This document shows positions 1 to 20,991 of a stretch of 43,176 bases of DNA, one piece after another. The stretch's first letter is position 1; every line of letters begins with the position of its first letter. The stretch spans positions 1-43,176 of the forward strand of contig NZ_JAHUZE010000008.1 in assembly GCF_019218265.1 (NCBI RefSeq), written 5' to 3'. The notes under the pieces were generated by a model, which was not told the origin of the DNA, searched no databases, and saw only the letters and a list, made by a program, of their open reading frames with translations. This stretch comes from Maritimibacter dapengensis (lineage in GTDB: Bacteria > Pseudomonadota > Alphaproteobacteria > Rhodobacterales > Rhodobacteraceae). A program made the translations under genes and the position numbers.

Positions 1-113
1 GCTAATAAAGGGTACAGTATGGCAATTAACGGTACAATATGAAAATTAAGGGTACATCGTGCCGCTGAAAACAAACGATAATTTTAAAGGCAATTCTGAT
101 TAATGAGGGTACA
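1..113. mobile_element. Transposon end with iterated ~20-bp repeats (element extends left of window)
   Basis: A unit reading TTAAGGGTACA recurs with its GGTACA part at 11-16, 31-36 and 51-56, exactly 20 bp apart. A related TTTAAAGGCAATT lies at 84-96 and a further GAGGGTACA ends at 113. Read on the minus strand the last copy begins TGTACCC at 113. This is where homology of the neighbouring gene to its intact paralogue at 26349-30746 stops. Ends that start TGT and carry several 19-22 bp transposase-binding sites are known from the Tn7/Tn5053 (TniA, Mu-type DDE) group. I infer such an element, with its transposase outside the window. The family is not proven. Confidence 0.6.
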
Positions 114-1504
114 GTGACACGGGTCATCCGGGACTGGTCTTCGTCGATCGTGAACCTGCCCGGCAGGTCGCGCCCGTGGGCGTCGTTTGCCATCAGGATG
201 GTCTCGAGCTGGGCCTCGGAAAGATGACCCCCCTCGATCAGATGGCCAGGCAGCCGCAGGTCCGAGGCGGCTTCATTCGACGGAACCGGGGGCGCGACCG
301 AGGCCATGGCAATACTCTCGACGAGCGGCGTGGGATGTTCCTGAGCCCCCGTGATCTCAATCCGCTGCGGGCGGTAGCGAGCGTAGATGTCCGAGACCGG
401 GGTGTTTTCGCGGGGTGTGTCGAGGCAGGTGAAGGCCAGCGGGATGGCGGCATGCGATTTGGGTTTGGCAGACGCCGCTTGGGCGATTGGGCGCTGACGT
501 GCAACAGGGACACCGACCCGGCGCGACCCAGTCCGAAACTGCGCACCGGTTTGGATCGAGGGAGTGGCAGTGCGGGTTGCGGCGATGTCATCGATGATTT
601 GGCGCGCCGCGTCCAGATCGTCGACCATGGCACGGACGATCTCGATCTCCTCCTGCACCTTGTCGAAGACCATGAGCTGGGTTTCCACCGTGGTGCCGAG
701 TTTGCGGTAAACGTGGACAGGGATCGTGAGCGCTAGGCGCGGCTTTGCGATGGCCGAGGCCCGTGACCAATGGGCCGCGTCCCGTTCCGGCGAAAATCCC
801 ATCGGCATGATTGCCACGAGACGCCCGCCCGGCGCGAGGCGCTTAGCCGCGGAGATCAGATGTTTCGCCGCGATGTGCCTGTCCCGCGAGCGATCGACCG
901 AAGAGGCGAAGGGTGGGTTCATCACGATGACACCGGGAAGGTCGGGCACCGTCAGGAGATCATCAATATGTTCCGCGTCGAAGCCGGTCACCTGCGTGTC
1001 AATGGTCGCCTCGAGAAGCGCCCTGCGGAAGGGATCGATCTCGTTCAGCATCGGTTTGCCACCCGCGCGCACGGCAAAACCAGCCAGCGCGCCGGTCCCG
1101 GCGGAAGGTTCGAGGACGGTTTCGCCGGGGCGAATGGCGGCTGCGCGTATTACCAGTGCCGCAAAGGGCAGCGGCGTCGAGAACTGTTGCAGACGGATTT
1201 GCTGCTCGGAGCGCCGGGTCTCCGTCAGGAGCCGTGAGGCGAGCAATCTGGCCGTCGCGAGCACGTCCGAACCGCTGTCCTGCATGATCGTCGTCACCGT
1301 GGCGGCCTGCATCAGGTCATAGGCCATGCGCCAGGACCACGCGCCGCCGGCATCGCTGCCACCGAAAGTCTCGCGCATGATCCGAGCGAGCGATGAGCTC
1401 TTGAGCGGTTGCTTCTCAATCTCGCTGCCGATCAGGCGAATGGCCTGCAGAAGGTGAGGTTTCGATGGGAAATCGCGTGCGAGTGCCAGGCTTCGGTTGT
1501 CCAT
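26..1504 (-). pseudogene. Truncated methyltransferase-helicase (strawberry-notch type), N-terminal part only
   Basis: The first ~464 residues match the N-terminal half of the intact 1465-aa protein at 26349-30746. Both have the RRSE..RLQQFSTPLP segment, methyltransferase motif I EPSAGTG (residues 132-138), motif IV NPPF (196-199), and the EHPT.LV.S.AMASV.PPVP linker. The open frame then leaves the family at nucleotide ~113, exactly at the transposon end, and runs on for 28 unrelated codons. The cut falls just before the point where the intact paralogue has its ATPase motif. A methyltransferase-like domain therefore remains but the helicase is gone. ATG at 1504 was chosen; a leader hairpin lies upstream (1549-1584). 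A residual methyltransferase function is possible, but a broken gene is more likely. Confidence 0.85.
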
Positions 1505-1530
1505 ATCGTCTGTCCTTTGAGTCAGGTTGT

Positions 1531-1600
1531 GGGTCCGACAGGACAGAAAGCCGCCTCTGCGCTTTCAAACGCGCGGAGGCGGCTCAAGGCCGGACAGATG
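1531..1600 (-). repeat. Repeated structured leader, copy 1
   Basis: Directly upstream of the methyltransferase fragment, on the minus strand. A perfect 9-bp stem (1549-1557 with 1576-1584, GC-rich) is followed by TTTCTGTCCTGTCGGACCC. The same plan, a GC-rich stem and then TTTC and a small CC-GG hairpin ending in TTC or CCC, recurs upstream of six other genes in this window. It may be an attenuator, a protein-binding leader or a processing signal. Confidence 0.5.
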
Positions 1601-1616
1601 ACGTCGCTGCCGGCGG

Positions 1617-2273
1617 TCAGGACCCCTTCCCGGCGAAAAATTCGGCCAGAACCGGACTCGCCGCACTCTTCGCCGAGCTGAGGAGTTCGGACCCGGCGAG
1701 CGAGGCTTTCGACAGACGCACGAGGTCGCCTGTCTCCTCGATGCGGTAGCAGCGACGCTTTTGCCCTCCGCGCCGGTAATGGGTGGCGGTCACGATCTGG
1801 CAGGTGCTGCCATCGGTCAGCGTTACCGGTGAGGCCAGTTTGATCTTGTCACCCTCGTCGTAGTCCGGGATTGCCGCCCAATCGCGGCAGCGCTGACGCC
1901 AAGCATGGGCATAGCTGTCGGGATCCTTCAACTCGGAGAGCAACACCAGAAGGCTGAGCGGCGCGCGGGACTCGACCGGGCCGACGCTCTCCTCCATGTC
2001 CTTGTAGCCCCAGCAGCCCTCGTCATAGCGGGTGAGGAAGACGGCGCCGAAGGTGATCGACCCGTCGGCATCGGTCACGTAGGTTCTGTCTTCAACCGGT
2101 CCGCCATCGATGTTGGTGAGCCTCAAAGCTGCATACCAGGTCGAGCCGACCTTGCAGGCCTTGAGCAACAATGTCTTGCGGGTATCCGTCTCGAAGGTGC
2201 AGAGCCGGGCGATTTCTGCCTTCTCCTCCGCGTAGGTTTTGACGCGGCGGTCGGTGTAGAAGAGCCAACCCAC
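1617..2273 (-). CDS. DUF6927-like hypothetical protein
   Basis: A 218-residue soluble protein that begins MGWLFYTDRRVKTY. It resembles plasmid-borne DUF6927-type proteins of alphaproteobacteria; the family name is from memory and was not searched. The sequence is rich in Trp, Tyr and Cys, with no signal peptide or membrane segment. It starts with GTG, which overlaps the TAG stop of the upstream 197-aa gene by one base, so the two are translationally coupled. It sits in a minus-strand run (ArdC, DUF3768, ParB-like, unknown, this gene, methyltransferase fragment). Function is unknown; the context suggests plasmid maintenance or anti-defence cargo. Confidence 0.75.
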   Translation of the reverse strand: MGWLFYTDRRVKTYAEEKAEIARLCTFETDTRKTLLLKACKVGSTWYAALRLTNIDGGPVEDRTYVTDADGSITFGAVFLTRYDEGCWGYKDMEESVGPVESRAPLSLLVLLSELKDPDSYAHAWRQRCRDWAAIPDYDEGDKIKLASPVTLTDGSTCQIVTATHYRRGGQKRRCYRIEETGDLVRLSKASLAGSELLSSAKSAASPVLAEFFAGKGS

Positions 2274-2866
2274 TATGCCGCCCTCCGGTCATCGATTTCG
2301 ATGAGCGCATCGAGCGGCACGCGGTAAGGCAGCATATCGTCGAAATCCTCGCAATTGCCGCTATTCTGCACGAGGGCGTGGGTGTCGGTGGCGTCCTTCA
2401 GGATCACCCGGAACGTCCCGCCGAGACCGGAGGGCACGTCGTAGGTGCCGCCGATCAGGTAGTCAGCGGCGCGGCGCAGGAAAACGCAGATCGTGTGGCC
2501 ATCGGTTGCCAGCCGGATAGTGTCGTGACCGCGGTCGATCAGCATCTGCACGTCATCGAGAATGTCGGTGTAGAACTGGCCCGTCAAATCGCGAAACGCC
2601 GCCTGCCGCGCCGCCATCCAATCCGGATCGCGGAACGGGTTGATGCCCTTGGCGAAGGCATATGTGGGATCGGCGCGTTCGGTGGTGACGATCCGCGTGG
2701 TCGAACCGTCGATGCCATTGGAGCGCAGATGCACACCAGTGCCGACGATCAGGATCAGGGCGGGTTTGCCCACCGGCCCGTTCCAGTTGGGAAGGAAGGT
2801 GGAGCAGCCGCGCGCATGCGCGATCTGCGCCGCGACGCTCGCGGCAGTGAAGCTAAGAAGGGACAT
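2273..2866 (-). CDS. Hypothetical plasmid protein, 197 aa
   Basis: I do not recognise a family. The reading frame is open further upstream, but the ATG at 2866 (MSLLSFTAASV) is preceded by an AGGT ribosome site about 8 bases away and is preferred. The protein is soluble, with a hydrophobic strand PALILIVGTGVHL near residue 35 and a helical region around the middle (TDILDDVQMLIDRG). There is no signal peptide. It lies 70 bp downstream of the ParB-like gene and its stop overlaps the next start by one base, so it belongs to the same operon. No catalytic motif is visible. Confidence 0.7.
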   Translation of the reverse strand: MSLLSFTAASVAAQIAHARGCSTFLPNWNGPVGKPALILIVGTGVHLRSNGIDGSTTRIVTTERADPTYAFAKGINPFRDPDWMAARQAAFRDLTGQFYTDILDDVQMLIDRGHDTIRLATDGHTICVFLRRAADYLIGGTYDVPSGLGGTFRVILKDATDTHALVQNSGNCEDFDDMLPYRVPLDALIEIDDRRAA

Positions 2867-2936
2867 GGGATTTACCTGTAAGATGGAGGGAAGGGTGCGA
2901 CCCGCGCCGGACATGCCGAGCGGGCCGCCTGCTCGA

Positions 2937-4910
2937 TCAGGCCGCTTTGGCGACCCCGGTTGCGTCTACGGGTGTCTCGGACTCGCCAGCATCAACCGGC
3001 TCGACACCTGCCGTCTGCATCATCGGAGGACACCAGGCCGCGACCGCCGCGCGCTGCGCCTCCGTCAGCGTGGCGAAAGGCTCCGCAAAGAGCTTTTCGC
3101 AGAATTCGACGACTTGCTTCTTGGTCGAAGAGGCCAATGTCACCGCCTCTTGTGCGAGCCCCAGCTCCTCGCCGAGAATCTTCAGAAGCCAGGCCTTCTT
3201 GAAGCGGTTGAAAAGCGCCGCATTCGGCGTCCAATGCGCCCGTATGTCCGGCATGATCTCGACTTCGAAGTCATGCATCAAGCTGTCGCGCTGCCTGTCC
3301 CGTGCGAAACAGGATTGCGTGGTCGCGGCCGTAGCGTAGGCGACGAGTTTCGCCTTCTCGCCCGCGTCAAGGGCCCGGAAGAGCGCAAACTGGTCGGCAG
3401 GGGACTTCGCGTCATCGGCCCAGGAGAGGTTGAGCGCGTCATGCGCTGCCGCCACCTGTTCGAGCGATGTGCCGTCGATCTCGTCCATCTTCGCGTGGGT
3501 GCGATACTCCTGTCGCGCGTCGACCTTGATCGCCTGGGTGACGCCCAAACCGCTGGTAAGCACATCCGTAACCAGCTTGAAGAGCGTGAGATCAAGCGTC
3601 GCCTCCGGGTGCTTGGCCATGGCCGCGCCGAGCGCCATTGCCCGTTCGGTCTTGAGATCCTCGGTGAGCGAGGCGGGATAGGTGATCTCATCGCCGTCTG
3701 CGGCGCCCTTGTCACTCGGTGCGCCGGTGCCTTTGCCAGACCGCTCTGTCTTGTCTTCAGGGCGCACCATCCCGACATGCAGGGAGATCTTGCCATGCGA
3801 CCAGGACGCGATCACGCCGGAGCTGGCAAGATCCTCGGTGCTATAGGCCTCCCGGAGGTCCCGCGCCTCGGCTTCCAGCGCGTCCACGCGTTCGTAGAGT
3901 TCATTGTACGCCTCGTCCTCGAGTTCTTCGTTCTCCATCTCGTGTTCGAGTTTCTCAAGCTCGGCGGTGATCTCGTCGACGCGCCTCGAACCCTTCTCGT
4001 CGGGCTCGACCGGACCCGGATAGACCCGACCATAATCCGCCATGGCGGCATAGTCGTACTGAATGACCGCGTCGGCCCAGGCAAAGCCGATCTCTGCCCG
4101 AGCCTCTTCGGCGGCGGCGGCGAGTTTTTCCAGCAGGATCGTTTCGACCAGCGCGGAATCCTCGAGCACGGAATGCTCGTCCAGCAGATCGGCCGCGATG
4201 GCACCGCCGCGCGCCTCGTAGTCTTTACGCACGAAGGCCCCGATATCGTCGCTGACCTGGACACCGCGGGACTTCAGCGCGTTCCGCACGGTGTAGGCCT
4301 GGACATGGTTGTCCTCCTTGGTGAGCGCCTCGAAGACCTCGCGTTGCACCTCCTGGCTGGGATGATCGGCGAAAGCCTTCATCGTATCGAGCGTGATCGA
4401 TTTGGCGCGGGCCGCGGCGCGGATGTCGGGATGGATGAGCCCATAGCGCAGACGGCCTTTGACAGCGGCGACCGTGGTACCGAAGGTCTTGGCGATGGTT
4501 TCCGGCGTCTGACCATCGACCTCCATCATCCGGGCGAAGGCCTCGAACTCGTCGATCGCGTTCATCGGGGCCTGGGTGATGTTTTCGGCGAGCGAGAGCG
4601 CGGTGGTCACATCACAATCTTCGGAGACCAGTCGGCAATCGATCTTCGTGCTGTTGGTGAAGCCCTTGGCGGCCTTGTCCGCAGCAAGTTCCAGCAGGGC
4701 CGCGTGTCGACGGCCACCGGCGAGCACCCCGAACTTGCCGTCGATCTTCTGGACGAGCAGCGGTTGCAGGAGGCCCAATACGGCGATGCTGGCCTTGAGA
4801 TGCGCGATATTCTCGGAGGCGTAGGTCTCGGGGGAATTGGTCCGTACGTTTGCGGGATGGGCGACAAGATCGCCGATGGCGACGGTGGTGGGTTTGAACG
4901 ACTGAGTCAT
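2937..4910 (-). CDS. Long ParB/RepB/Spo0J-like nuclease-domain protein, copy 1
   Basis: A 657-aa protein, about twice the size of a classical ParB. The N-terminal ParB domain shows GLLQPLLV (46-53), VLAGGRRHAA (62-71, the ParB-box arginines) and ENITQAPMNAIDEF (from 109). It is followed by a helix-turn-helix near 134-159 (TPETIAKTFGTTVAAVKGRL). A strongly acidic coiled coil lies around 313-358, and the remainder is helical and unassigned. ATG at 4910 was chosen because AGAAGGA lies ten bases upstream; the frame is open further. Modern ParB domains bind CTP; the GRR motif is compatible, but I cannot assign NTPase or nuclease activity. It is not the partition ParB, because repB serves that role. 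A paralogue lies at 34080-36257 with the same neighbour, DUF3768. Confidence 0.88.
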   Translation of the reverse strand: MTQSFKPTTVAIGDLVAHPANVRTNSPETYASENIAHLKASIAVLGLLQPLLVQKIDGKFGVLAGGRRHAALLELAADKAAKGFTNSTKIDCRLVSEDCDVTTALSLAENITQAPMNAIDEFEAFARMMEVDGQTPETIAKTFGTTVAAVKGRLRYGLIHPDIRAAARAKSITLDTMKAFADHPSQEVQREVFEALTKEDNHVQAYTVRNALKSRGVQVSDDIGAFVRKDYEARGGAIAADLLDEHSVLEDSALVETILLEKLAAAAEEARAEIGFAWADAVIQYDYAAMADYGRVYPGPVEPDEKGSRRVDEITAELEKLEHEMENEELEDEAYNELYERVDALEAEARDLREAYSTEDLASSGVIASWSHGKISLHVGMVRPEDKTERSGKGTGAPSDKGAADGDEITYPASLTEDLKTERAMALGAAMAKHPEATLDLTLFKLVTDVLTSGLGVTQAIKVDARQEYRTHAKMDEIDGTSLEQVAAAHDALNLSWADDAKSPADQFALFRALDAGEKAKLVAYATAATTQSCFARDRQRDSLMHDFEVEIMPDIRAHWTPNAALFNRFKKAWLLKILGEELGLAQEAVTLASSTKKQVVEFCEKLFAEPFATLTEAQRAAVAAWCPPMMQTAGVEPVDAGESETPVDATGVAKAA

Positions 4911-5538: not shown

Positions 5539-6462
5539 TCATGCGGCCTGTTCCCCCTGCCCCGCCTCCGACACGGCGACGAGATAGTCGCAGGCGCGCT
5601 GCGCGTCCGCCGCATGTTTGAAGATCGCCCGCTTGTCTGAGCGGAGCACCCGGACCCAGTTGCTGAGATAGGCCGCATTCAGCTCCAGCGTATGCGCCGA
5701 AAACCCCAGCTTCTGACCCAAAAACACCGTACAGAGCTCGGCCACAATCTCTTCGCGGGCATATGCCGTGTTCCCGAACCGAGCGTCGCCATAGCTTCGG
5801 TTCAACCGATGCCGGGGTTTCGTCCAGTGACCCAGCTCATGACCCCAGACGGCGTAGAAATTCCGCGGGTTCTCGAAGAGCTCGATCGGGGGCATGTAAA
5901 TCTTGTCGAGGTTCGGGACATAACATGCTTCCCGACCAGAGAAGCTGACATTGGCACCGATTGCCTCGAAGAAGCTCTGCATATGCGGGATCGGTGCGCG
6001 TTCGGGATGAACTTCCGGTTCGGCCGCAGCGGGATGGAAGCGAGGGTCCAACCCCTCGATCTGATCGGCGTTGAAGACGCGGTAGGATTTCATGAAGGGG
6101 ATGGTTTTGGGGTCTTCGGTTTCCGCCTCCCCGCCGTGGGCGCTTTCGACCTGTTCGCGCTCGGCCGTTCCGTAGTAGACGACCACCGACGATTTCGAGC
6201 CCTTGATGACTTTCGCATCGAGCTCGTTCGCCTGCCTCAACGTCATCCAGTAAGGCGAGGCGTATCCGGCCATCATGGTGCGCATGGTCAGCAGGAAGTT
6301 GTTGACGCCCTGATAGGGTTCGCCGTTCTGACGGAGCGGCACGGAACTGCCGCCGACGGTCCAGGGCTTGCGCCAGGGCAGCACGCCCCGGTCGATGATC
6401 TTAATGAGTTCGTTGGTGATCGATGCCGCGGCGTCGAACTTTGGCTTGCTGGATTTGGCCAT
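5539..6462 (-). CDS. ArdC-type antirestriction protein: ssDNA-binding domain plus zinc metallopeptidase
   Basis: 307 residues from the ATG at 6462, which has GGAG 6-7 bases upstream. The N-terminal ArdC domain (about 10-130) shows GVLPWRKPW, YQGVNNFLL, YASPYWMTLRQA and KGSKSSVVVYY. The C-terminal zincin-like domain (about 165-300) has HELGH at 208-212, an H after WTKPR, and AREEIVAEL with a downstream Glu. ArdC proteins bind single-stranded DNA and protect incoming plasmids from restriction. The role of the peptidase part is less clear. It is the first gene of the minus-strand block and is preceded by a leader element at 6578-6615. All metal ligands expected for a gluzincin seem present. Confidence 0.92.
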   Translation of the reverse strand: MAKSSKPKFDAAASITNELIKIIDRGVLPWRKPWTVGGSSVPLRQNGEPYQGVNNFLLTMRTMMAGYASPYWMTLRQANELDAKVIKGSKSSVVVYYGTAEREQVESAHGGEAETEDPKTIPFMKSYRVFNADQIEGLDPRFHPAAAEPEVHPERAPIPHMQSFFEAIGANVSFSGREACYVPNLDKIYMPPIELFENPRNFYAVWGHELGHWTKPRHRLNRSYGDARFGNTAYAREEIVAELCTVFLGQKLGFSAHTLELNAAYLSNWVRVLRSDKRAIFKHAADAQRACDYLVAVSEAGQGEQAA

Positions 6463-6577
6463 GATGATCTCCGATGTCTGGTAAGTGTGCAGACCCGGAG
6501 GTACCGTTGGGGAAACACCCTTGGTGGGGACGGCAGGGTCCGTCCAGAACCCTGCCAGACCCCCACCCCGTGACTCT

Positions 6578-6615
6578 GGATCCGGCAAAACCCAAAGCTT
6601 GCTTTTACTTTTTTC
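6578..6615 (-). repeat. Repeated structured leader, copy 4
   Basis: Upstream of the ArdC gene. The minus strand reads AAAAGCAAGCTTTGGG, then TTTTGCCGGATCC. AAAGC and GCTTT form a short stem, and the tail matches copy 3. Confidence 0.45.
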
Positions 6616-6734: not shown

Positions 6735-6810
6735 GCCTCGGTAGCTCAGCGGTTAGAGCTGACCGCTCATAACGGTTAGGTCGCAGGTTCGAATCCTGCC
6801 CGAGGCACCA
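6735..6810 (+). tRNA. tRNA with CAU anticodon (Ile2 or elongator Met)
   Basis: A full cloverleaf of 76 nt. The acceptor GCCTCGG pairs with CCGAGGC, the discriminator is A, and CCA is encoded. The D stem is GCTC/GAGC. The anticodon stem GACCG/CGGTT encloses CTCATAA, giving anticodon CAU. The T arm is GCAGG TTCGAAT CCTGC. The paired first base pair rules out initiator tRNA. The CTCATAA loop and GGTCGC stretch look more like tRNA-Ile2, whose C34 is modified to lysidine, than elongator Met, but this cannot be settled by eye. It is followed one base later by tRNA-Leu, so they form a tandem transcription unit. Confidence 0.92.
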
Positions 6811-6811
6811 C

Positions 6812-6897
6812 GCGGACATGGTGGAATGGTAGACACCGGAGACTTAAAATCTCCTGCACAATCGAGCGTGCGGGTTTGAGTCCCGCTGTCCGCACCA
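6812..6897 (+). tRNA. tRNA-Leu(UAA)
   Basis: 86 nt. The acceptor GCGGACA pairs with TGTCCGC, the discriminator is A, and CCA is encoded. The anticodon stem GGAGA/TCTCC carries loop CTTAAAA with anticodon UAA. A long variable arm precedes GCGGG TTTGAGT CCCGC, as expected for class II tRNA-Leu. Plasmid-borne tRNAs can supplement host codon use, or replace host tRNAs cut by defence nucleases. The 3' end could serve as an integration site, but I found no second copy of it in the window. Confidence 0.95.
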
Positions 6898-7060
6898 GAA
6901 TCGGCCCCGCAACGCTGCAGCACTTTTCGAACCCTCAAAAAGGCTGGCCAACAGGCGGCCTGCAAAGACGTTCAGGTCAATAGGAGGAGCCATTTTCGTT
7001 ACCGTGCTCGGAGTAGTCCACGAGCATTGAGACTAAGGAAAGCAAGTATCCGTCGGGCTC

Positions 7061-8569
7061 TCAGACGAAGTAGCGAAATGAGGTCTCGCCCGGCTCAGCG
7101 TCTCCGAACTCGTCAAGGATGCCGCCGACTCGACGCGCGAACGACAAAGTCACGGGCCACTTCCCACGAATATCAGCCGTATTCCAATTCATGCGAGTGA
7201 GATTCAATACGTCTTGAGCAGCCTCAGTCTTACTACCACCTGACTGCATTCGGATTTCAAACGGCTGCGGAACATGAGGGCCAGGATACGTACCCAACTC
7301 GGGCATGAAGCCTGACGTGAATAAGAAGGAGGTACCAGAATTGATAGTGCAAAGTGTTCCGACATTCGGAGGATAGACCCCCAGCCTCAACAGACGCAAA
7401 CTGCTCGGAACCAGCGTCACGAGATCAACAATGGGGATGTCAGTTAGTGCCGCCTTAATACCCGCAAGTTCGGCGGCATCGAAATATGTGGTCTTGTGCA
7501 TTACCACTCGTACCGGTGGACCACCCGCACGCGTTGCATATTCCGCCACGATATCTTTTGAGAGATCGTATGCTTGCTCTTCGGAAAGGTGAACATTGCG
7601 GCTCTGATCGGGTGTGGCTGGTACGCCATCACCCCGGATTGCAAATCCTTCTCCCTCGCTCGAAAAAGCCTGCGCCAAACTGGATTGAACAATGTGGCGC
7701 TTGGTTGTTCTCAGGTGATGGAAAGATATTCCAACAAAGCACGTCTCAGGCCCCGTTTGGGGCAATCGCCATGGAACTCCACCCGCTTTGTAGTAGACAC
7801 CAACTGAAAAGTTCCATGCTCTGGTTGCAGCATCTTGACCACGAGGCGTGTCCTCAAGAAGGTTCCGGGTGACCATTTGTATCGGAAGCTTGGCTCTGAG
7901 CGCACGCGCTTTAAGTGCATGGCGCAAGTCTCTCTTCAGAAAGTCCTCTTCCGTCTGCTCGACTTCTTCAAATAGATCAAACAAATCAAGTTGACCATTG
8001 GCCCGAGACTTTCGAATTATAGCTGCAGCTTTCTTTTCCTCGGTTGTCGCGCTTCGCTCTACAGAGTGGGACTTCTTAAGAACCTCGTCTGGCATCGCCA
8101 TTATGACCAAGTCAGGTCGATTGGAGTCGCGAGCGGCAAGGCTATCCAATGCATCAGCGTAAGCGTCCAGCACCTGCTCGAAGCGGCGGAATGGATCACT
8201 GATTGCGAGCGCAGTGCCGAGTTTGTCGCCTACCCCGCCCTCGTCTAGCCGAACAGTCCAACTGTCTTTAGTCACCAGTGCGCTGTGGAACGTCTCTTCG
8301 AAACCAGGAAACATCCGTCTCAGTTGTGTTTCGCCTTCCAAAACTGGGATCGGGTTCATGCAGCGCTCTAACCAAGCCCTAGTGAGATCGATCATCCATT
8401 GCGGGCCAATTATTCCGACGCCAATCTTCTGCTTCCTTGAAGCCGACCCAAAATGGAGGTCGAATGGCCCCGCCTGTGCCAGTCCTACCTTGGGATCCGA
8501 AACCGAAAGAGCACCACCAAATTGAAGGTTTGGGGGCGCCAACTCTTTGACTGACAGCTCTAGCGTCAT
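7061..8569 (-). CDS. Short prokaryotic Argonaute (MID-PIWI, catalytically inactive)
   Basis: 502 residues. It begins with the short-pAgo signature (NLQFGG...DPKVGL..AGPFD, residues 14-37). A MID-like region follows (KLPIQMVTRNLL, 227-238, with Q245 and K261). The PIWI part starts at CFVGISFHH (277-285) and ends with LTRMNWNTAD and PVTLSFARRVGGIL. Where active Argonautes have the first catalytic Asp, this protein reads GISF, so slicing is not expected. There are no N or PAZ domains. The ATG overlaps the stop of the SIR2-APAZ gene by 4 bp (ATGA), so the two are one operon. Known short pAgos bind guide RNA, form a heterodimer with the APAZ partner and switch on its effector when target DNA is found. 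The DNA is visibly less GC-rich than its flanks, which suggests recent transfer. Confidence 0.93.
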   Translation of the reverse strand: MTLELSVKELAPPNLQFGGALSVSDPKVGLAQAGPFDLHFGSASRKQKIGVGIIGPQWMIDLTRAWLERCMNPIPVLEGETQLRRMFPGFEETFHSALVTKDSWTVRLDEGGVGDKLGTALAISDPFRRFEQVLDAYADALDSLAARDSNRPDLVIMAMPDEVLKKSHSVERSATTEEKKAAAIIRKSRANGQLDLFDLFEEVEQTEEDFLKRDLRHALKARALRAKLPIQMVTRNLLEDTPRGQDAATRAWNFSVGVYYKAGGVPWRLPQTGPETCFVGISFHHLRTTKRHIVQSSLAQAFSSEGEGFAIRGDGVPATPDQSRNVHLSEEQAYDLSKDIVAEYATRAGGPPVRVVMHKTTYFDAAELAGIKAALTDIPIVDLVTLVPSSLRLLRLGVYPPNVGTLCTINSGTSFLFTSGFMPELGTYPGPHVPQPFEIRMQSGGSKTEAAQDVLNLTRMNWNTADIRGKWPVTLSFARRVGGILDEFGDAEPGETSFRYFV

Positions 8570-11355
8570 TGGCCATCGTCCCCACTATCATCATCGGGAA
8601 CATCTTGTGCTGCATCAACGTCGTCAATCGCTGCAAGATCTTCCAACTCTTGATCAGCCTCCAAAACCCTCCGTTCCAGTTCGTCCTCAAGGGTTCGACC
8701 ATCACCAAATGCTGTCGACTTATAAGCAATTCCGGGGAACGCACTGTTGAGTAGTACTGTTGGCGCATAATCCGAAAGCGTGTTCCTCGTATCAGGTTTC
8801 AAGGCAAACACACCTTCAGCCTCCTCGGACAAACATGCCATCCAGAAAGTCACATCGTGCATCACACTTGGATTAAAGTCTCGGGCAGCCCTTTTTGTCG
8901 AAAGAATATTTATTCTATCTCTTCCTAAGTACCGGCGATTGCCGTCGCGAGTGAAGACGTAACCCGGGTTGATAAAGAGACCCCAGTCAATCCCAAAGGC
9001 CATCAAGGAGTATGTGAAGGCCTTATGTTCGTAGTAGAGAAGATCGTCAGAATCTCGCCTTGTACGAGCCTTCACAATGGTTCTCGTAGCGCGCTTCACG
9101 CGTCCCTGATAAGTGATTTTTCTTTCAGGCTCGTCGGTTTTGGGGAAGTGCGCCCGGCGACGATCCTCGTCAACAACCAGGCCGATTGCCCTTAGGTGTT
9201 CGTTCAACAGCTCATGCAGTAGCCTACGCATGATGTTCAAACCATTTCCCTGCTCAAAGAGCTCTGGGATTGTCAGTTCTTCGATGTCTCCATCGTCAAA
9301 TGGCGTTACATAGTCACTTGTGATCCGCTCCAGATCGTAAAAACTAAAGAAGCGCCCATCTTGGACATATCCTGGAGGAACTGGAAGATCTCCGGCGCTT
9401 TTCCGAAGCCCTGATGCTGATCGCGCGGATGTACCGGCGTGCCAAATCTTTTCCGGCAAACCAACAAATTCCAAAAGATTTGTCGTGAACCGTACTGTTT
9501 CAGACTGATCTGCTACCGCCGTGCGAGTAATTTCATCTACTGCTTCTGGTCGGGCAAAAATCAGTACCTTAAACGCAGAATTCTGCTCCATCGGATAGAA
9601 ATGCACATCACCATTATTGTCGATTGTGTATTGAAGCATGTCGGCTAGGCCTGAGCCGCGCCTTTCCATTTCGTTGCTACCGTAAAAGAAACTCGAAATG
9701 ACTGGGTTTCGATAGCCCTTCAAAACACCCCGCGAACCTCCGCGTACAAGGCTCTCAATCGACTCTGCGCCGGTCCGTAGCGCGACTTCATCTATGAGAC
9801 CCCCTGGACTTACCGTTTCAATCTCAGTCGGTGAAATCCTGATTTCTATTGGCGCTTCAACCGCATAATCCCGATGCACTAGTGCATTCACAATCATTTC
9901 ATGGATAGCCAACGGATGATAGGGAGTTACTTGGCGGGATTTTCCATCTTTCAAGAGAAACGGCGAATTGAGGAGAGCGATCGTCTCCTCAAGTGTGTTT
10001 AGCTGGTTCCAAAGAGTACCACCAATTTCTCGCTCAACCCAAAAAACGTCAGCCTCGCCGGTGTCGATGAGATCAGCGTCATCGCCGAAGGCTCCGCGCA
10101 GCCATGATTCCGGACCTACAATGGTTAATTTGACCATTGCCTGGGCGAGGCGCTTGTTAGGAGTTCGAGCGAACATGACCCAAGCAGCGAGCGTAGGCGC
10201 CGAACTTTCCGGATCACCTTCAGTTTGATGCAGGAGCTTCTTAACAACCGCGCGTTCTTTGACCCAATCAGAGTTAAAGCGCTCAGGATAAGGTTCGTAG
10301 TGCTTGTCGGCGTACTGCTTCAACCGCTGGAAAAGAACCTGTTCATCCAGATCTTCGAACCGCCCGGATTGAAAAGGGCGCATGTCCAAAGGAAGAGAAC
10401 TCGGGGCGCTGACCGGCCCAAGTTGTTTCAAGGGAGTCTGCCGAGCAACGAGTTGCTCCAGCAGGTCCGTCTTCAATAGTTGATCGAAGCCATCAATTGG
10501 AACCCGATTGAAGTTTGAACCAATCTTGTCCGCAAAAGATTGTACCAGAGGCGAGAGGGATTCGCCTATGCTGCGCTTCATATCGCACCAGAAGACCCCG
10601 TTTTTGAACCCATTTGCATAGTCAATTTGGTTTTCAAGAAGGTCTTTCATGACCGATGGCTCCATTCCGCGATACCCAACTACAATCAATGGGTGATCAC
10701 GCAAAAGAGGCTTGATATGCTCGACGGTCTCTTGGTCCAACTTCAATACATCTTCGGCCAAATTCTTGTCGGAGTAGTGCTCAACCGATCCATGGATGTG
10801 GATTAACTGCGGGTTTGCTGGCGACGTTTTGAACTGGACCCAATCCGACGCAGTGCGGATCTTGACCAAGAAGGGCGGCACTGCTTCAAGAACGGCCGCT
10901 CGATCAATGCAATGATCAAAGTTTGTCGTTAGAACCGTTGCAACCCAACCGTTGTCTAAAATCCGTGCTAGCGCCCGATACCCCTGTCCGGGCTTCACAC
11001 CACGGCTGATAAGTTGCTCGAAGAACTCTCTTCGATCCTGTCCAATTCCCAAAAGGTTGTCGATCGCAACAGGGTATTGGTCGGGGAGACCAACCCCCCG
11101 TTTGAACCAAGACTGCTGTTCAAGCCAAGGTATCCAATCAGAATCAACGACGCCTGGGTCCATCGGAGACCGACCATGCGACTTACAGTATGCCCACTTC
11201 GCTGCGCGGTTCACTGTTTCACCGGCCGCTGGCACACCGGATGTAACGGAAGCCCCTGCTCCTAGCAACAGAACCGGCTGGCGGTGCTCGGCGAGCAGTG
11301 TTTGCAGGCGTCCAACCTCTGCATGTCTAATTGATGATAGAACCTTGCTGTCCAT
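8566..11355 (-). CDS. SIR2 / RecG-like ATPase / APAZ effector partner of the short Argonaute
   Basis: 929 residues, much longer than the roughly 450-600 aa usual for SIR2-APAZ proteins. The SIR2 domain (about 10-300) has GAGAS (32-36, NAD binding), TTNFD (143-147), HIHG (186-189, likely catalytic His) and VVGYRGMEPS (225-234). A middle region (about 340-600) resembles the AlbA/Schlafen-associated RecG-like GHKL ATPase: HEMIVNALVHRDY (485-497), SPGGL (516-520), FFYGSNEMERRGSGLADM (556-573). The APAZ-like region (about 660-895) has the FTYSLMAFGI...NPGYVFTRDG segment and is followed by an acidic tail. SIR2-APAZ/short-Ago (SPARSA) systems deplete NAD+ and abort infection; I infer the same here, with an added ATP-binding module of unknown role. 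Confidence 0.9.
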   Translation of the reverse strand: MDSKVLSSIRHAEVGRLQTLLAEHRQPVLLLGAGASVTSGVPAAGETVNRAAKWAYCKSHGRSPMDPGVVDSDWIPWLEQQSWFKRGVGLPDQYPVAIDNLLGIGQDRREFFEQLISRGVKPGQGYRALARILDNGWVATVLTTNFDHCIDRAAVLEAVPPFLVKIRTASDWVQFKTSPANPQLIHIHGSVEHYSDKNLAEDVLKLDQETVEHIKPLLRDHPLIVVGYRGMEPSVMKDLLENQIDYANGFKNGVFWCDMKRSIGESLSPLVQSFADKIGSNFNRVPIDGFDQLLKTDLLEQLVARQTPLKQLGPVSAPSSLPLDMRPFQSGRFEDLDEQVLFQRLKQYADKHYEPYPERFNSDWVKERAVVKKLLHQTEGDPESSAPTLAAWVMFARTPNKRLAQAMVKLTIVGPESWLRGAFGDDADLIDTGEADVFWVEREIGGTLWNQLNTLEETIALLNSPFLLKDGKSRQVTPYHPLAIHEMIVNALVHRDYAVEAPIEIRISPTEIETVSPGGLIDEVALRTGAESIESLVRGGSRGVLKGYRNPVISSFFYGSNEMERRGSGLADMLQYTIDNNGDVHFYPMEQNSAFKVLIFARPEAVDEITRTAVADQSETVRFTTNLLEFVGLPEKIWHAGTSARSASGLRKSAGDLPVPPGYVQDGRFFSFYDLERITSDYVTPFDDGDIEELTIPELFEQGNGLNIMRRLLHELLNEHLRAIGLVVDEDRRRAHFPKTDEPERKITYQGRVKRATRTIVKARTRRDSDDLLYYEHKAFTYSLMAFGIDWGLFINPGYVFTRDGNRRYLGRDRINILSTKRAARDFNPSVMHDVTFWMACLSEEAEGVFALKPDTRNTLSDYAPTVLLNSAFPGIAYKSTAFGDGRTLEDELERRVLEADQELEDLAAIDDVDAAQDVPDDDSGDDGQ

Positions 11356-11529
11356 CTGCTCGAATCGTGTTGTTTTGGTTTTGTTAGTTTATTATGCGGA
11401 ACAAATTCAGAACATGCTAGACTGTTCACTGTCGCAAACCATAGGGTCAGAATGTCTTAGTCACTTTCCTTTGAGTTCAGATTTTTTGCATTCGCGTCAT
11501 GCACATGACTTTCGGCGCCCAATGAGCGA
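11356..11529. promoter_or_regulatory. AT-rich upstream region of the Argonaute operon
   Basis: 174 bp between the SIR2-APAZ start and the GNAT stop. It is clearly AT-rich and holds a CATAATAAA stretch on the minus strand about 35 bases before the ATG, which could be a -10 box. I see no convincing -35 partner, operator or strong ribosome site. Confidence 0.3.
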
Positions 11530-12078
11530 TCAACCGGACAGCGCCCGCACTGTCTGGATCGGCATGAACAGGCGCAACGGCTGATCTGGCAACGGGGTAA
11601 AACCGAACGCCTCGTAGTATGCTTTTCGGCGCGCCACGATTTCGGGGTTTCCGCAGTCGAACACATCGAGAAGGACGGCACAGGTTCCAATTTCGTCTGA
11701 GACGCGCCCAATCCGGTTGAGCGCATCGGCAAGCAATGCGCTGCCCAAGCCCTTTACCTGCATCGTTTGATCGACGCCGATCATGGAAATGAATGCAGCT
11801 GGCAGCATGCCATGCCTTGGCGCCTTCCTGGCCAGCTCATCAGGCATGTCTTCCGCAACAACCGCATGCATGTTGATCCCGTAGAACCCAAGGGTTCTAC
11901 GGTCATCGTCTAGCACGACCCAGATCCGGACGACATCAGCCTTGGACCCCTTCTTGGCCGTCAACTTCAGGTAATTGTCGATCTGGGGGACACCACAGGA
12001 AAAAGCCGTTCGATCCTGGCTCTTGGCATCGAACGGCTCGATTGTGAACTTGGCGTCTACGGCGGCGTCAGTCGGCAT
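11530..12078 (-). CDS. GNAT acetyltransferase toxin (TacT/AtaT-like)
   Basis: 182 residues of one GCN5-related N-acetyltransferase domain. The acetyl-CoA loop reads Q-V-K-G-L-G followed by SALLADALNRI. A C-terminal YYEAFGF...P..LFMP segment is typical of toxins such as TacT that acetylate charged tRNA. The ATG at 12078 overlaps the upstream antitoxin reading frame by 11 bp, the usual arrangement for DUF1778-GNAT pairs. The predicted outcome is translation arrest when the antitoxin is lost, so it should stabilise the plasmid. The exact tRNA target cannot be read from sequence. Confidence 0.9.
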   Translation of the reverse strand: MPTDAAVDAKFTIEPFDAKSQDRTAFSCGVPQIDNYLKLTAKKGSKADVVRIWVVLDDDRRTLGFYGINMHAVVAEDMPDELARKAPRHGMLPAAFISMIGVDQTMQVKGLGSALLADALNRIGRVSDEIGTCAVLLDVFDCGNPEIVARRKAYYEAFGFTPLPDQPLRLFMPIQTVRALSG

Positions 12079-12382
12079 TCGCGATCAGCGTCTCGCGCAA
12101 TGCAAAAGCCTGCTTCAGCCGATTATTCGGCTTCGGAGGATTTTCGAGCGCGCCAAAGAACGCAGCACGATCCGCCTCGCTCTCCAACGCCGTCAACTTA
12201 TGAGCTTCAATCGTCGTCTGCGCGGCCTTGTATGCAGCGCTCACAACAAAGGAGCTTACCTCAACACCGCTCAAGGTTGCTGCGCGACTGATCGCATCCT
12301 TCACCGAAGGCTGTGTACGCGCTTCCAGCCGAGCGCTCTTGGGCTCGTCGACAGCGACAGTGCTATCCTCAAACGCCAACAT
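12068..12382 (-). CDS. DUF1778 antitoxin (TacA-like, ribbon-helix-helix)
   Basis: 104 residues. The N-terminal part carries a ribbon-helix-helix fold pattern (KSARLEARTQPSVKDAISRAA, then FVVSAAYKAA) followed by a toxin-neutralising tail (FFGALENPPKPNNRLKQAF). ATG at 12382 was chosen for the near-perfect AAGGAGG site six bases upstream, although the frame is open for 15 more codons. It is the first gene of the operon with the GNAT toxin. Two 19-bp palindromes in the promoter are its likely operators, with the protein alone or in complex with the toxin acting as autorepressor. Confidence 0.9.
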   Translation of the reverse strand: MLAFEDSTVAVDEPKSARLEARTQPSVKDAISRAATLSGVEVSSFVVSAAYKAAQTTIEAHKLTALESEADRAAFFGALENPPKPNNRLKQAFALRETLIANAD

Positions 12383-12438
12383 GGTTGCCTCCTTGATCCG
12401 AAACGACGTCAAGCGGCAAGATGCCACTCACACGCAGC

Positions 12439-13649: not shown

Positions 13650-13768
13650 ATTGAACCGCCCCATTTGCCGCAGTGTCTGTGCTTTACGGATTCGCAACAG
13701 CGTTGCTATAATGAAATCCTGAAACAACACATACGGGGCCAAAATGAAAATTGCAAGAGTCGAACACC

Positions 13769-14125
13769 ATGCCTAGTGTGCAATTCGACGGGAACGGCTT
13801 CTACGCCGCGTTGGACGCGGTACGGGAGGAACGGAAGCTCACCTGGAGAAAGGTTGCAGAACAGTCGGGGGTGAGCGCTTCATCGCTCACGCGGATCTCG
13901 CAAGGGAAGAGACCGGATGTAGACAGCCTAGCATCTCTGTGCTCATGGGCGAAACTGAGCGCCGACGATTTCATGCGCGCGCACGACAGCAGTCAGAATG
14001 GCGAGCCCTCGTCGTTGACCAAAGCACTGATGTTGTTCCGCGCAGACCCAAACTTAGGAAAAGAACAGGCAGACGCTCTCGAGCGCATCATTCAATCCGC
14101 ATATGAGGGCCTGAGGACGCACTGA
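13769..14125 (+). CDS. XRE-family helix-turn-helix regulator
   Basis: 118 residues. The HTH spans about 15-60: VREERKLTWRKVAEQSGVS, then SSLTRISQGKRPDVDSLASL. A helical C-terminal part follows. ATG at 13769 was chosen over an upstream TTG (13751). It is divergent from the E2-like gene across ~120 bp and its stop overlaps the ImmA/IrrE start by one base (TGATG), so the two are coupled. HTH-ImmA pairs typically control phage, ICE or defence modules: the peptidase cleaves the repressor on stress. It may control the divergent gene as well as itself. Confidence 0.9.
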   Translation: MPSVQFDGNGFYAALDAVREERKLTWRKVAEQSGVSASSLTRISQGKRPDVDSLASLCSWAKLSADDFMRAHDSSQNGEPSSLTKALMLFRADPNLGKEQADALERIIQSAYEGLRTH

Positions 14126-14688
14126 TGGCACTAAGGCGGGGCTTCAAGACCGATGCGGAATGGTACGCTCAGGATGTTCGACGCGAACTCGGCATCCCTG
14201 AAACCGGAAAACTGTGCCCATGGAGCCTCGCAAAACACCTTGAGCACATCGTTGTTGATCTTTCGTCATTCCAGAAAGAGCACCCACTCGACGTCGCACG
14301 CCTTCGGCAATGCACAGGCGCAAAGGGATTTTCTGCAGTCACCATTCACAAGGGTACTGCACGGCTTGTGATCTTGAACGATGGCCACGAGAAGCCACGT
14401 CAAACGGCGGATCTTGCTCACGAACTGGCACACGGACTCCTTCATCACGTCCCGCTGCCTTTGAGTGATGAAACTGGTGTACGCATGTTCAATGCCCGAG
14501 ATGAAGAGGAGGCGCATTGGCTGGGACCAACCCTGTTGGTTCCAGGTCCCTCCGCCCACGCGATTGCGAGACAACGCCTTTCGATTGAAATGGCGGCAGC
14601 GCAGTATGGTGTGAGTAAGGAGTTAATGCGTATGCGGTTGAACATATCTGGCGCGTTTAAGCGTGCTAAAGCGGCAGGCTGGCGTTGA
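14125..14688 (+). CDS. ImmA/IrrE-family metallo-endopeptidase
   Basis: 187 residues. The zinc motif HELAH (99-103) follows RQTADLAHELAHGLLHH, and a third ligand is likely in NARDEEEAHWLG. The C-terminal RLSIEMAAAQYGVSKELMRMRLNISG is the helix found at the end of this family. ImmA-type peptidases inactivate cognate XRE repressors by cleavage. The partner is the HTH gene immediately upstream (one-base overlap), so the pair should work as a stress-responsive switch. Confidence 0.9.
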   Translation: MALRRGFKTDAEWYAQDVRRELGIPETGKLCPWSLAKHLEHIVVDLSSFQKEHPLDVARLRQCTGAKGFSAVTIHKGTARLVILNDGHEKPRQTADLAHELAHGLLHHVPLPLSDETGVRMFNARDEEEAHWLGPTLLVPGPSAHAIARQRLSIEMAAAQYGVSKELMRMRLNISGAFKRAKAAGWR

Positions 14689-18448: not shown

Positions 18449-19732
18449 TTACGCCGCCTGCCCGCTGAGCCTACCGTAGAAGCTACGCTCGAGGTGCAAC
18501 TCCCCTGCCCCGGCCTTCTGGACAATACCACGGAGATAGCCGCCCGGAGACGCGACTTCGCCGGCGCAATGCTTATCGAAGGTCAGAACCAGCGCGGCGG
18601 TTGCAATTTGAGGCCCAAGACGAACCTGCGCGAGGTTCCAGGCATGCTCCGAGACGCCAATCATTGGCCTCAACTGGCCAGCAACCCGGTGCAGATCGCC
18701 CCAATCTTTGAGATACCCGCCCATATTGCGCGCCCAGGACGCGAATTCGGGACAAGCCTGCATCACAGTCGGCAAATCAAGCGCTGCTCCACGTTTTTTG
18801 CGGGTCTCAGCAACCCACTCTTCCAACTCCCTATCAACCTGCTCTTCCGGTGGCGCATTTGGCACCACGCCCGCCGCTTGCTCAGTTTCTGAGCGATTAC
18901 AGGTTACAGGATTTAGTTGGGTTGTAATTAGTATATGGGGGTCAGAAATGACCTCCCTGGGGTTCATTTTTTGAGTCTTTTCGAAGACTTGTGCCTTGGT
19001 TGCAGGCGTGTTTTCCACAGGTTGGACAGCCTCAGTTGCCTTAAGGTAAGCTGCCTCGACACGCTCCTGAAGCTCTTTGAACCAGGTCAAGAGCCGGACA
19101 AGCTGTTCGGAAGCTTCGTGGCGGCGCGGAAGCCGGTCCAAAAGCTCTTCGAAGAGCCCCGTGAACTGCGCCCAGGGCCCGCGCAGCGCGTTGCTGACGG
19201 CAGCCTCGATCCGCGCCCTGATCATCCGTCGTGCCACCGTGATCTGGCGCTTCAGGCGCTGACAGAGCTCACGTTCGGCCTGTAAATCGGCATGCAACTC
19301 CTCGAACTCCTCGACACGGGCCGACAGCGGCGACAGATCGAAGCCGTAGGCCTCGATAATGCGCCCATCGGCGTCCCTGCGCCCCCACCGCTTGCCGTTC
19401 GGGCTGTCCTGGAAGGAGATCACGCCGATCTCGGCCAGCCGTCGCGCATGGCGTTTGAGAGCCGAGAGCGAGAAGCCCGTCTGCTCCATCAGATAGGCGT
19501 TTGATGCCCAGACGATCGGGCGCTGCCCCTCCTCCCAGTCCTGGGCCTGAGTAAAGGCCCCGAGCGTGTCGAGGAGCATCATGTCTCCGGCCTTGAGGCC
19601 AATGTATGCACCGACCCGCTTTACGGCCACGAAGGCCCGCGTCTTGGGTACAGCTAACTGTTCACCGGCTTGGGCAAGCTGCTCTGCAATGCCAAGACCC
19701 GGTGTCGGCTTGCGCCAACCTGTATGTTTCAT
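18449..19732 (-). CDS. repC: Replication initiator RepC
   Basis: 427 residues with the RepC plan. An N-terminal winged-helix DNA-binding domain (GWRKPTPGL, KRVGAYIGLKAGDMMLLDTLGA, ASNAYLMEQTGFSLSALKRHARRLAEIG) leads into a long helical region, a variable linker rich in Thr and Pro, and a C-terminal domain with ASPGGYLRGIVQKAGAGELHLERSFYGRL. RepC binds the origin inside its own gene and is the only protein needed to start replication of repABC plasmids. It is the last gene of repABC and its translation is limited by the leader hairpin and the antisense RNA described separately. Confidence 0.95.
   Translation of the reverse strand: MKHTGWRKPTPGLGIAEQLAQAGEQLAVPKTRAFVAVKRVGAYIGLKAGDMMLLDTLGAFTQAQDWEEGQRPIVWASNAYLMEQTGFSLSALKRHARRLAEIGVISFQDSPNGKRWGRRDADGRIIEAYGFDLSPLSARVEEFEELHADLQAERELCQRLKRQITVARRMIRARIEAAVSNALRGPWAQFTGLFEELLDRLPRRHEASEQLVRLLTWFKELQERVEAAYLKATEAVQPVENTPATKAQVFEKTQKMNPREVISDPHILITTQLNPVTCNRSETEQAAGVVPNAPPEEQVDRELEEWVAETRKKRGAALDLPTVMQACPEFASWARNMGGYLKDWGDLHRVAGQLRPMIGVSEHAWNLAQVRLGPQIATAALVLTFDKHCAGEVASPGGYLRGIVQKAGAGELHLERSFYGRLSGQAA
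18885..18950. other. Candidate oriV inside repC
   Basis: A short AT-rich stretch in otherwise GC-rich repC, with a direct repeat TTACAGG-TTACAGG near 18897-18910 followed by GTTGTAATTAGTATATGG. Origins of repABC plasmids lie within the central AT-rich part of repC, so this is the expected site. It falls in the variable linker region of the protein. Confidence 0.45.
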
Positions 19733-19744
19733 GCCTGTTTCTCA

Positions 19745-19762
19745 CCTCCAGTTATGTGGAGG
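19745..19762 (-). promoter_or_regulatory. Hairpin sequestering the repC ribosome site
   Basis: On the minus strand CCTCCA, six bases, TGGAGG forms a perfect 6-bp stem. The 3' arm TGGAGG is the repC Shine-Dalgarno, about 12 bases before the ATG at 19732. In repABC plasmids such a hairpin, formed when the antisense RNA pairs upstream, lowers repC translation. Confidence 0.75.
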
Positions 19763-19796
19763 CAAAAGAAAGCCGTTCGCCGAAGTGGCGTTCTTG

Positions 19797-19887
19797 TTGA
19801 CAGTGATTCGCGGGAGAGATATCTTCTAAGCGACCAAACTTTTCAGATTAGCTCTCAGGCCACGCTGCTTGGGGGCTTTTCTTTTGC
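19797..19887 (+). ncRNA. Antisense ctRNA (incompatibility RNA) with promoter and terminator
   Basis: A textbook promoter on the plus strand, opposite to repABC: TTGACA (19797-19802), a 17-bp spacer, TATCTT (19820-19825). Transcription would start near 19832. A GC-rich GCC..C/GGGGC stretch followed by TTTTCTTTT (about 19858-19885) can serve as terminator, giving an RNA of about 50 nt. The position in the repB-repC gap and the orientation are those of the small RNA that controls copy number and incompatibility of repABC plasmids. Confidence 0.8.
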
Positions 19888-19892
19888 CTAGA

Positions 19893-20888: not shown

Positions 20889-20942
20889 CAAGTCATCTCC
20901 ACTTCGTTAGAATCCAACCGGCGCGCAGTCTGCATTTCGACA

Positions 20943-20985
20943 GTTGCACGGCTGTCAAAATTGGCGCTCTGCACGGCTGTCAAAA
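20943..20985. repeat. Two candidate parS sites between repA and repB
   Basis: The 16-mer TGCACGGCTGTCAAAA occurs at 20945-20960 and 20970-20985, a 25-bp period. With the preceding base, copy 1 is partly palindromic (TTG-N3-G-N-C-N3-CAA). A third exact copy is at 22474-22489, upstream of repA. Repeats placed on both sides of repA in a repABC cassette are most simply RepB-binding centromere sites. Confidence 0.65.
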
Positions 20986-20991
20986 CCACAG

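Follow-up and report, generated by a model that had tools for sequence, protein, structure and literature searches.

Short prokaryotic Argonaute (pAgo) systems differ chiefly in the effector that is carried on APAZ. According to the accessible text of PMC12205087, it is assembly induced by the target that activates SPARDA, SPARTA and SPARSA; SPARTA and SPARSA tetramerise on target DNA, and NbaSPARDA passes through a monomer-dimer-monomer-filament series upon guide and target binding. In GsSPARSA (GsSir2-APAZ/GsAgo; PDB IDs: 8in8, 8jl0), the linker between SIR2 and APAZ consists of residues 309–331 only, and alanine mutants of N142/H186 lose the NADase activity (available text of PMC10781750). 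Other SIR2-containing partners have been listed in surveys, the accessible parts of which describe a short pAgo termed ‘double-effector’, in which SIR2 and a histidine kinase accompany APAZ (PMC10810196), og_40 ‘SIR2_1 fused with Schlafen’ among the APAZ proteins in 2018 together with 13 SIR2 proteins in APAZ group IIb (PMC6299218), and ‘DHS-like-APAZ’ of S2B, cited in PMC12205087.

The window analysed here, a 43,176-nucleotide stretch of DNA from Maritimibacter dapengensis, carries on its minus strand a short pAgo of the MID-PIWI type (P0002; 502 aa; 7061–8569) and its partner (P0001; 929 aa; 8566–11355), which is composed of SIR2, a GHKL-type block, APAZ and an acidic tail. The ORF table agrees with an earlier note on this DNA about the coordinates of both genes and their 4-bp overlap (8566–8569, minus strand), and the motifs quoted there are present in the translation of P0001. 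Chance ORFs are ruled out by the strong PADLOC matches of both proteins. P0002 matches pAgo_I (8.2e-142) and gives no Pfam match at E<=1, while P0001 matches PDLC02402 ‘Aga_SIR2-PNTD1-PNTD2’ (E=0, 1162.6 bits, residues 14–917) and PDLC02418 ‘Aga_SIR2-Kinase-PNTD1-PNTD2’ (6.9e-291, residues 153–921). Pfam recognises SIR2_2 (residues 140–240, 1.3e-8) and HATPase_c_4 (residues 501–597, 9e-7) in P0001 and nothing else at E<=1. A MID-PIWI pAgo without PAZ, located beside an APAZ protein, marks a short-pAgo system, and this is the arrangement seen here; matches to short pAgos in the PDB and phylogenetic trees place P0002 likewise, and the SIR2 and pAgo similarities claimed in the earlier note are strong in both PADLOC and the PDB.

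The two PADLOC models match P0001 nearly end to end, and the printed descriptions of the surveyed proteins, as far as the accessible parts of these sources go, fit the order of its parts. ‘DHS-like’ presumably stands for a SIR2 fold. We infer that the survey entries (PMC10810196, PMC6299218, PMC12205087) and PADLOC models all mean this protein group, so the earlier surmise that the architecture might be in surveys holds, the design being already listed in PMC10810196, PMC6299218 and the PADLOC models. Nothing was found that sets the present copy apart from the group, and its G1 box does not support the label ‘kinase’. In the open-access papers searched, which include no bioRxiv preprints and few subscription papers, we found no biochemical study of this architecture, no paper joining pAgo, SIR2 and GHKL, no ‘RecG’ in the APAZ papers listed and nothing related for HATPase_c_4, AlbA_2, Schlafen or ATP. 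The combination of SIR2, GHKL and APAZ with a short pAgo is a known and apparently uncharacterised kind; to this the present analysis adds where the middle block belongs by family, that the G1 Asp is missing, a probable mosaic origin and the limits of the cassette.

P0002 carries VGIS (residues 279–282) and HKTT at the positions of the catalytic Asp, so that, judged by eye, two motifs are without Asp. Active PIWI motifs, we assume, carry Asp at both positions, and the PIWI domain of P0002 is apparently inactive by sequence. The motifs were compared without an active reference, since the sole long pAgo obtained with PF02171 for comparison also looks inactive.

Scanning of genome contigs identified five related loci (L033–L037, in Shimia, Antarcticimicrobium, Pseudoruegeria, Pseudodonghicola and Thalassovita) which are 94–100% identical. 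PDLC02402 was found at E<=1e-60 in 4 of 390 genomes of the order, and PDLC02418 at E<=1e-30 in 5 of 385 genomes of the class, the own genome being included in both counts; in the phylum, PDLC02418 was found in one of 398 genomes, which is the own one. P0001 itself matched 71 of 398 phylum genomes at E<=1e-3; only the own copy was matched by more than one part of the protein. Among 30 plasmid records with any match, one holds a near-complete copy (Mesorhizobium L042; 27.9% identity, 87% covered). The viral collection yielded 42 loci, where L079 alone spans the whole protein (50% identity) and L080 matches residues 7–240 and ends at the contig edge; scanning the viral contigs with just P0001 gave no match, and doing so with the APAZ alignment gave the L079 contig only.

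The pAgo gene directly follows the partner gene in all 12 complete loci (window, L033, L034, L035, L036, L042, L049–L053 and L079), the partner being frameshifted in L036. The two genes overlap by 4 bp in the window, L033, L034, L035, L036 and L045 (the short form of L052), by 11 bp in L079 and by 35 bp in L042. Partner proteins fall into two subfamilies, one of ~920–950 aa with an acidic tail and the other of ~850–880 aa. Two of the five copies in named genomes are broken, which could reflect a low value or a cost of the system and counts against the defence role proposed below. In L036 (6001–8789), the partner ORF is interrupted near codon 440 by a difference of a single base while the rest is 99.98% identical, and this is either a real loss or a sequencing error. 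In Thalassovita L037 (6001–7170), the identity is 100% as far as residue 388, beyond which the sequence is unrelated; the SIR2 end is kept and the remainder is gone from the stretch. The L079 copy (2–4594) adjoins terminase-like and serine-recombinase-like genes (ORFs read by eye), suggesting that it is carried by a prophage or integrated beside one.

The SIR2 domain of P0001 comprises residues 1–312 (10420–11355, minus strand) and was assigned from Pfam SIR2_2, phmmer, orthologues and Foldseek. Its catalytic pair, N145 and H188, corresponds to N142/H186 of GsSPARSA in the phmmer alignment and is invariant in 9 of 9 aligned orthologues (P0001 included; the other eight are 28–98% identical to it). 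The NADase residues are intact as read from the sequence, and the SIR2 part is predicted to fold like defence NADases, its model matching SPARSA, KomC, ThsA and DSR2 in Foldseek. Among solved structures the SIR2 of SPARSA is closest. In a tree of 37 rows (without L004, L008 and L010, which duplicate L055, L056 and L058, and without L033 and L036), the ten SIR2 domains of the GHKL group form one group (100/100) outside SPARSA, whereas deeper branches are weak (60/74) and the tree carries long-branch warnings. Outside the GHKL group, the highest SIR2 profile scores (124–141 bits) belong to seven SIR2 proteins from viral contigs and genomes (L005, L081, L087, L089, L093, L098 and L110) which, unlike P0001, show no APAZ or pAgo in the fetched stretches. 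Larger SIR2 proteins score 102–123 bits, a SIR2-APAZ-pAgo fusion 99, SPARSA 87–98, and L012, L019 and L075 lie below SPARSA at 50–79 bits. Many viral contigs among L081–L115 encode SIR2 proteins of ~640–670 or 870–930 aa (a few shorter or cut), and in the three scanned by Pfam only SIR2_2 was recognised. SIR2 fragments in the mixed alignment A8 have short misplaced tails.

Between SIR2 and APAZ lies the middle block (residues 318–612; 9520–10404, minus strand), assigned from Pfam HATPase_c_4, profiles, AlphaFold, Foldseek and residue counts. The earlier note had proposed an extra domain at residues 340–600 of the partner; hhalign and Pfam support its presence, with a span of roughly 318–612 instead. 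It falls in none of the four standard alignments of APAZ partners (SPARSA, DUF4365, SMEK and TIR; hhalign), and the SPARSA partners compared have no GHKL-type block, as that note had stated for the ATPase-like middle. Profile search with the block matches AlbA_2/HATPase_c_4-type proteins, mostly starting near residue 150 or later, the matches in L021 and L031 starting earlier. Five such proteins were scanned, giving SLFN_AlbA_2 with HATPase_c_4 in four and HATPase_c_4 alone in one; SLFN_AlbA_2 has no Pfam match in P0001 at E<=1. The middle block corresponds to the C-terminal half of a SLFN_AlbA_2/HATPase_c_4 protein (PDB ID: 3lmm; DIP2311), from which P0001 differs in that AlbA_2 is absent and the block is fused between SIR2 and APAZ. 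AlphaFold2 predicted the block from a 37-row alignment with a pLDDT of 88.4 and a pTM of 0.88. Foldseek of this model placed 3lmm first (6.4e-10, TM 0.58 by query length), with GHKL domains from pyruvate dehydrogenase kinase and CpxA next (7e-4 at best), and the block profile found 3lmm only among PDB sequences (4e-32). The modelled block has the GHKL fold, and the GHKL half of the earlier description ‘GHKL/RecG-like’ is supported by HATPase_c_4 and Foldseek; the RecG half reflects merely the Pfam name of HATPase_c_4. A RecG helicase was rejected, as Pfam detected no helicase family. PDLC02394 ‘pAgo’ (PADLOC, 1121 positions) weakly matches the block in P0001 (residues 478–521, 1.4e-4) and in L042 (339–522, 1.4e-6), which hints that a block of this kind occurs in a further Argonaute family.

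The earlier note took the locus for a SPARSA-type system with an enlarged partner. The short pAgo, SIR2 and APAZ, with the GHKL block added, are all present; the SPARSA lineage is not upheld by the APAZ domain or by the side on which the pAgo falls. The APAZ-like C-terminus that the note had described (residues 613–885; 8701–9519, minus strand) matches HNH-APAZ and DUF4365-APAZ chains of the PDB in phmmer, and by hhalign it is of the DUF4365/SMEK/TIR-APAZ type. It matched the DUF4365 (4.6e-21), SMEK (2.5e-10) and TIR (1.7e-8) partner alignments and not that of SPARSA (0.46), these E-values, from alignments of eight, five, three and five rows, respectively, being single pairs usable for contrast only. 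If a canonical SIR2-APAZ/pAgo pair of the S1 lineage had simply gained a GHKL block, the match of the SIR2 part to SPARSA (hhalign 4.8e-25), with none to the DUF4365, SMEK or TIR partners, would be expected, but the APAZ contrast would not, and nor would the pAgo. Among 13 PDB matches of the pAgo, short pAgos of the HNH, DUF4365 and TIR types take the first nine places, and that of SPARSA is tenth (3.1e-21). HNH-APAZ/short pAgo (PDB ID: 9om4), the effector of which is named an HNH endonuclease where SIR2 stands here, gives the best match among PDB sequences to the pAgo (7.6e-61) as well as to the APAZ (5e-13). Trees were used in place of profile scores for the DUF4365-type pAgos since profile A2 includes the SPARDA pAgo of the own genome, which biases these scores. 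Eight GHKL-group pAgos form one group, supported by 95/93 in a tree of 31 rows (8 of the 12 complete loci; L033, L036, L034 and L079 left out) and by 97/95 in a tree of 29 rows (the long rows L077 and L078 also left out), and in both trees, which carry long-branch warnings, a branch with 100/100 support separates them, together with the DUF4365, SMEK and TIR pAgos, from SPARSA. The branch uniting them with the DUF4365 and SMEK pAgos has a support of just 74/65 (29-row tree), and constraining GHKL and SPARSA pAgos together costs 5.25 log units and is unrejected (p-AU 0.066). A SPARSA with an inserted domain is, taken together, unlikely, and P0001/P0002 are probably not of that origin. They are probably a mosaic on an S2B/SPARDA-type sensor, with a SIR2 recruited apart from SPARSA, and the APAZ result is the strongest leg of this reading. 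SPARDA (DUF4365/DREN-APAZ with short pAgo) has the same APAZ type and tree side as the present locus, whereas its effector is a DUF4365 nuclease in place of SIR2 and the GHKL block. The SIR2 domain and NADase residues are common to P0001 and SPARSA, which has no middle block, an unlike APAZ and a more distant pAgo.

Three further readings concern what the SIR2 domain and the middle block do. Residues E486, N490, H494–Y497 (HRDY), P517, R549, N550, R565, G567 and G569 are invariant in nine orthologues and L079. These ten copies all keep the N-box Glu and Asn, and all have Ser or Asn at the position of the G1-box Asp. In GHKL ATPases this Asp binds adenine. All 33 family rows taken from viral contigs show the same replacement, and of these 32 keep the N-box Glu and 33 the Asn. 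With the N-box kept and the G1 Asp replaced, the pocket is conserved and is no textbook ATP site. A kinase, as the block is labelled by PADLOC and in the accessible part of PMC10810196, would agree with the GHKL fold and the invariant N-box but not with the altered G1 box, and a phospho-acceptor (HisKA-type) domain is absent from P0001 (Pfam, E<=1); we consider it improbable, and a histidine kinase was rejected on these grounds. The block might instead be a rigid connector left from a fusion with a Schlafen-type regulator, its pocket having no role, which is doubtful. The missing AlbA_2 half fits a passive spacer, as does dN/dS against L034 and L035, which is higher in residues 386–612 (0.19 and 0.11) than in APAZ (0.12 and 0.05); against it, the pocket residues are invariant across two subfamilies at 28% identity. 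The corresponding values are 0.13 and 0.12 for residues 318–385, 0.17 and 0.03 for SIR2 and 0.13 and 0.03 for the pAgo (dS against L052 is saturated), and at 0.03–0.19 they indicate purifying selection on all domains at the sequence level. A nuclease role of SIR2, predicted for pAgo-linked SIR2 domains in PMC2743648 and assumed in PMC6299218 as far as the accessible texts go, is highly improbable given that SIR2-APAZ relatives are NADases (available text of PMC10781750) and that the Asn/His pair is intact.

We return to the mosaic on a SPARDA-type sensor and consider it fairly probable that P0001 and P0002 make up an anti-invader system which is complete in two genes, belongs to the S2B (SPARDA-like) lineage and uses a SIR2 effector, the GHKL block relaying or gating assembly. 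The MID-PIWI protein together with APAZ would act as a guide-loaded sensor, recognition of the target would let heterodimers assemble, assembly would switch on the SIR2 domain to destroy NAD+, and the loss of NAD+ would stop the cell (abortive infection). Domain make-up, NADase residues, SIR2 and middle-block folds, lineage signals, pairing and purifying selection come from the sequence or from models, and guide and target use, oligomerisation, NAD+ loss and cell arrest are proposed by analogy with NbaSPARDA, SPARTA and SPARSA. The GHKL-type block, located between sensor and effector, would relay or gate the assembly, perhaps with a bound nucleotide, and not as a kinase or helicase; this is its most likely role and the least supported part of the proposal. 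The full-length AlphaFold model of P0001 has a mean pLDDT of 61.4, with residues 615–890 below 50, and domain interfaces or inter-domain coupling cannot be read from it because the APAZ region is modelled without confidence. Gating by ATP, as suggested in the earlier note, is possible from the sequence. A tentative two-key version is that the GHKL block holds a nucleotide, not necessarily ATP because the G1 box is altered, and that the NADase fires only when assembly of the target-bound Argonaute coincides with the right state of the pocket; it includes an origin by transfer, onto a SPARDA-type sensor, of a SIR2 other than that of SPARSA and of the regulatory half of a Schlafen-family protein.

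If the mosaic reading is true, NADase SIR2 effectors have joined short pAgos at least twice, and the locus is a natural test of one sensor coupling to unrelated effectors. Nothing corresponding to the middle block occurs in the SPARSA, SPARDA, SMEK and TIR partners compared, and the locus could open the AlbA_2/HATPase_c_4 family, represented by one solved structure in the sequence search, to functional study.

By blastn, the window is 88.3% identical to Pseudoruegeria L035 over 4486 columns (7047–11518, minus strand), comprising the two genes and ~160 bp upstream, and no other part of L035 matches the window. Since the match ends at these positions and the fetched flanks are unmatched, the unit is a two-gene cassette. 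GC drops to 0.50–0.53 across it. Promoter- and terminator-like sites are no commoner than in shuffles (1 against 3.6 and 6 against 5.5, respectively). Synonymous divergence from L035 is uneven, with dS of 0.72 in SIR2, 0.36 in the GHKL part, 0.33 in APAZ and 0.70 in the pAgo, perhaps owing to recombination between copies. L033 (99.93% over 14.7 kb) and L036 (99.98% over 11.5 kb) are nearly identical to the window over longer stretches, which points to recent transfer of a larger element. The window is probably a plasmid, because it contains RepC-, RepB- and ParA-type genes (18449–22203) and ArdC (5539–6588).

Directly downstream of the pAgo gene are tRNA-Met(CAT) and tRNA-Leu(TAA) (6735–6897), which are also present in L033 and L036 and in none of ten other loci scanned, including L034, L035 and L037; this restriction makes the pair part of the larger element and not of the system. 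Upstream of the cassette are an acetyltransferase/TacA-like pair with the look of a toxin-antitoxin (11530–12427) and an HTH/IrrE-type peptidase pair (13751–14688). The own genome holds a second short-pAgo system of the SPARDA type on contig C7 (44022–45467; L002, L054), consisting of DUF4365-APAZ and a pAgo. Near-identical copies of this pAgo are found in L060 and on the conjugative Phaeobacter plasmid L067, where (1631–2965) the annotation divides the DUF4365 and APAZ parts between two neighbouring genes.
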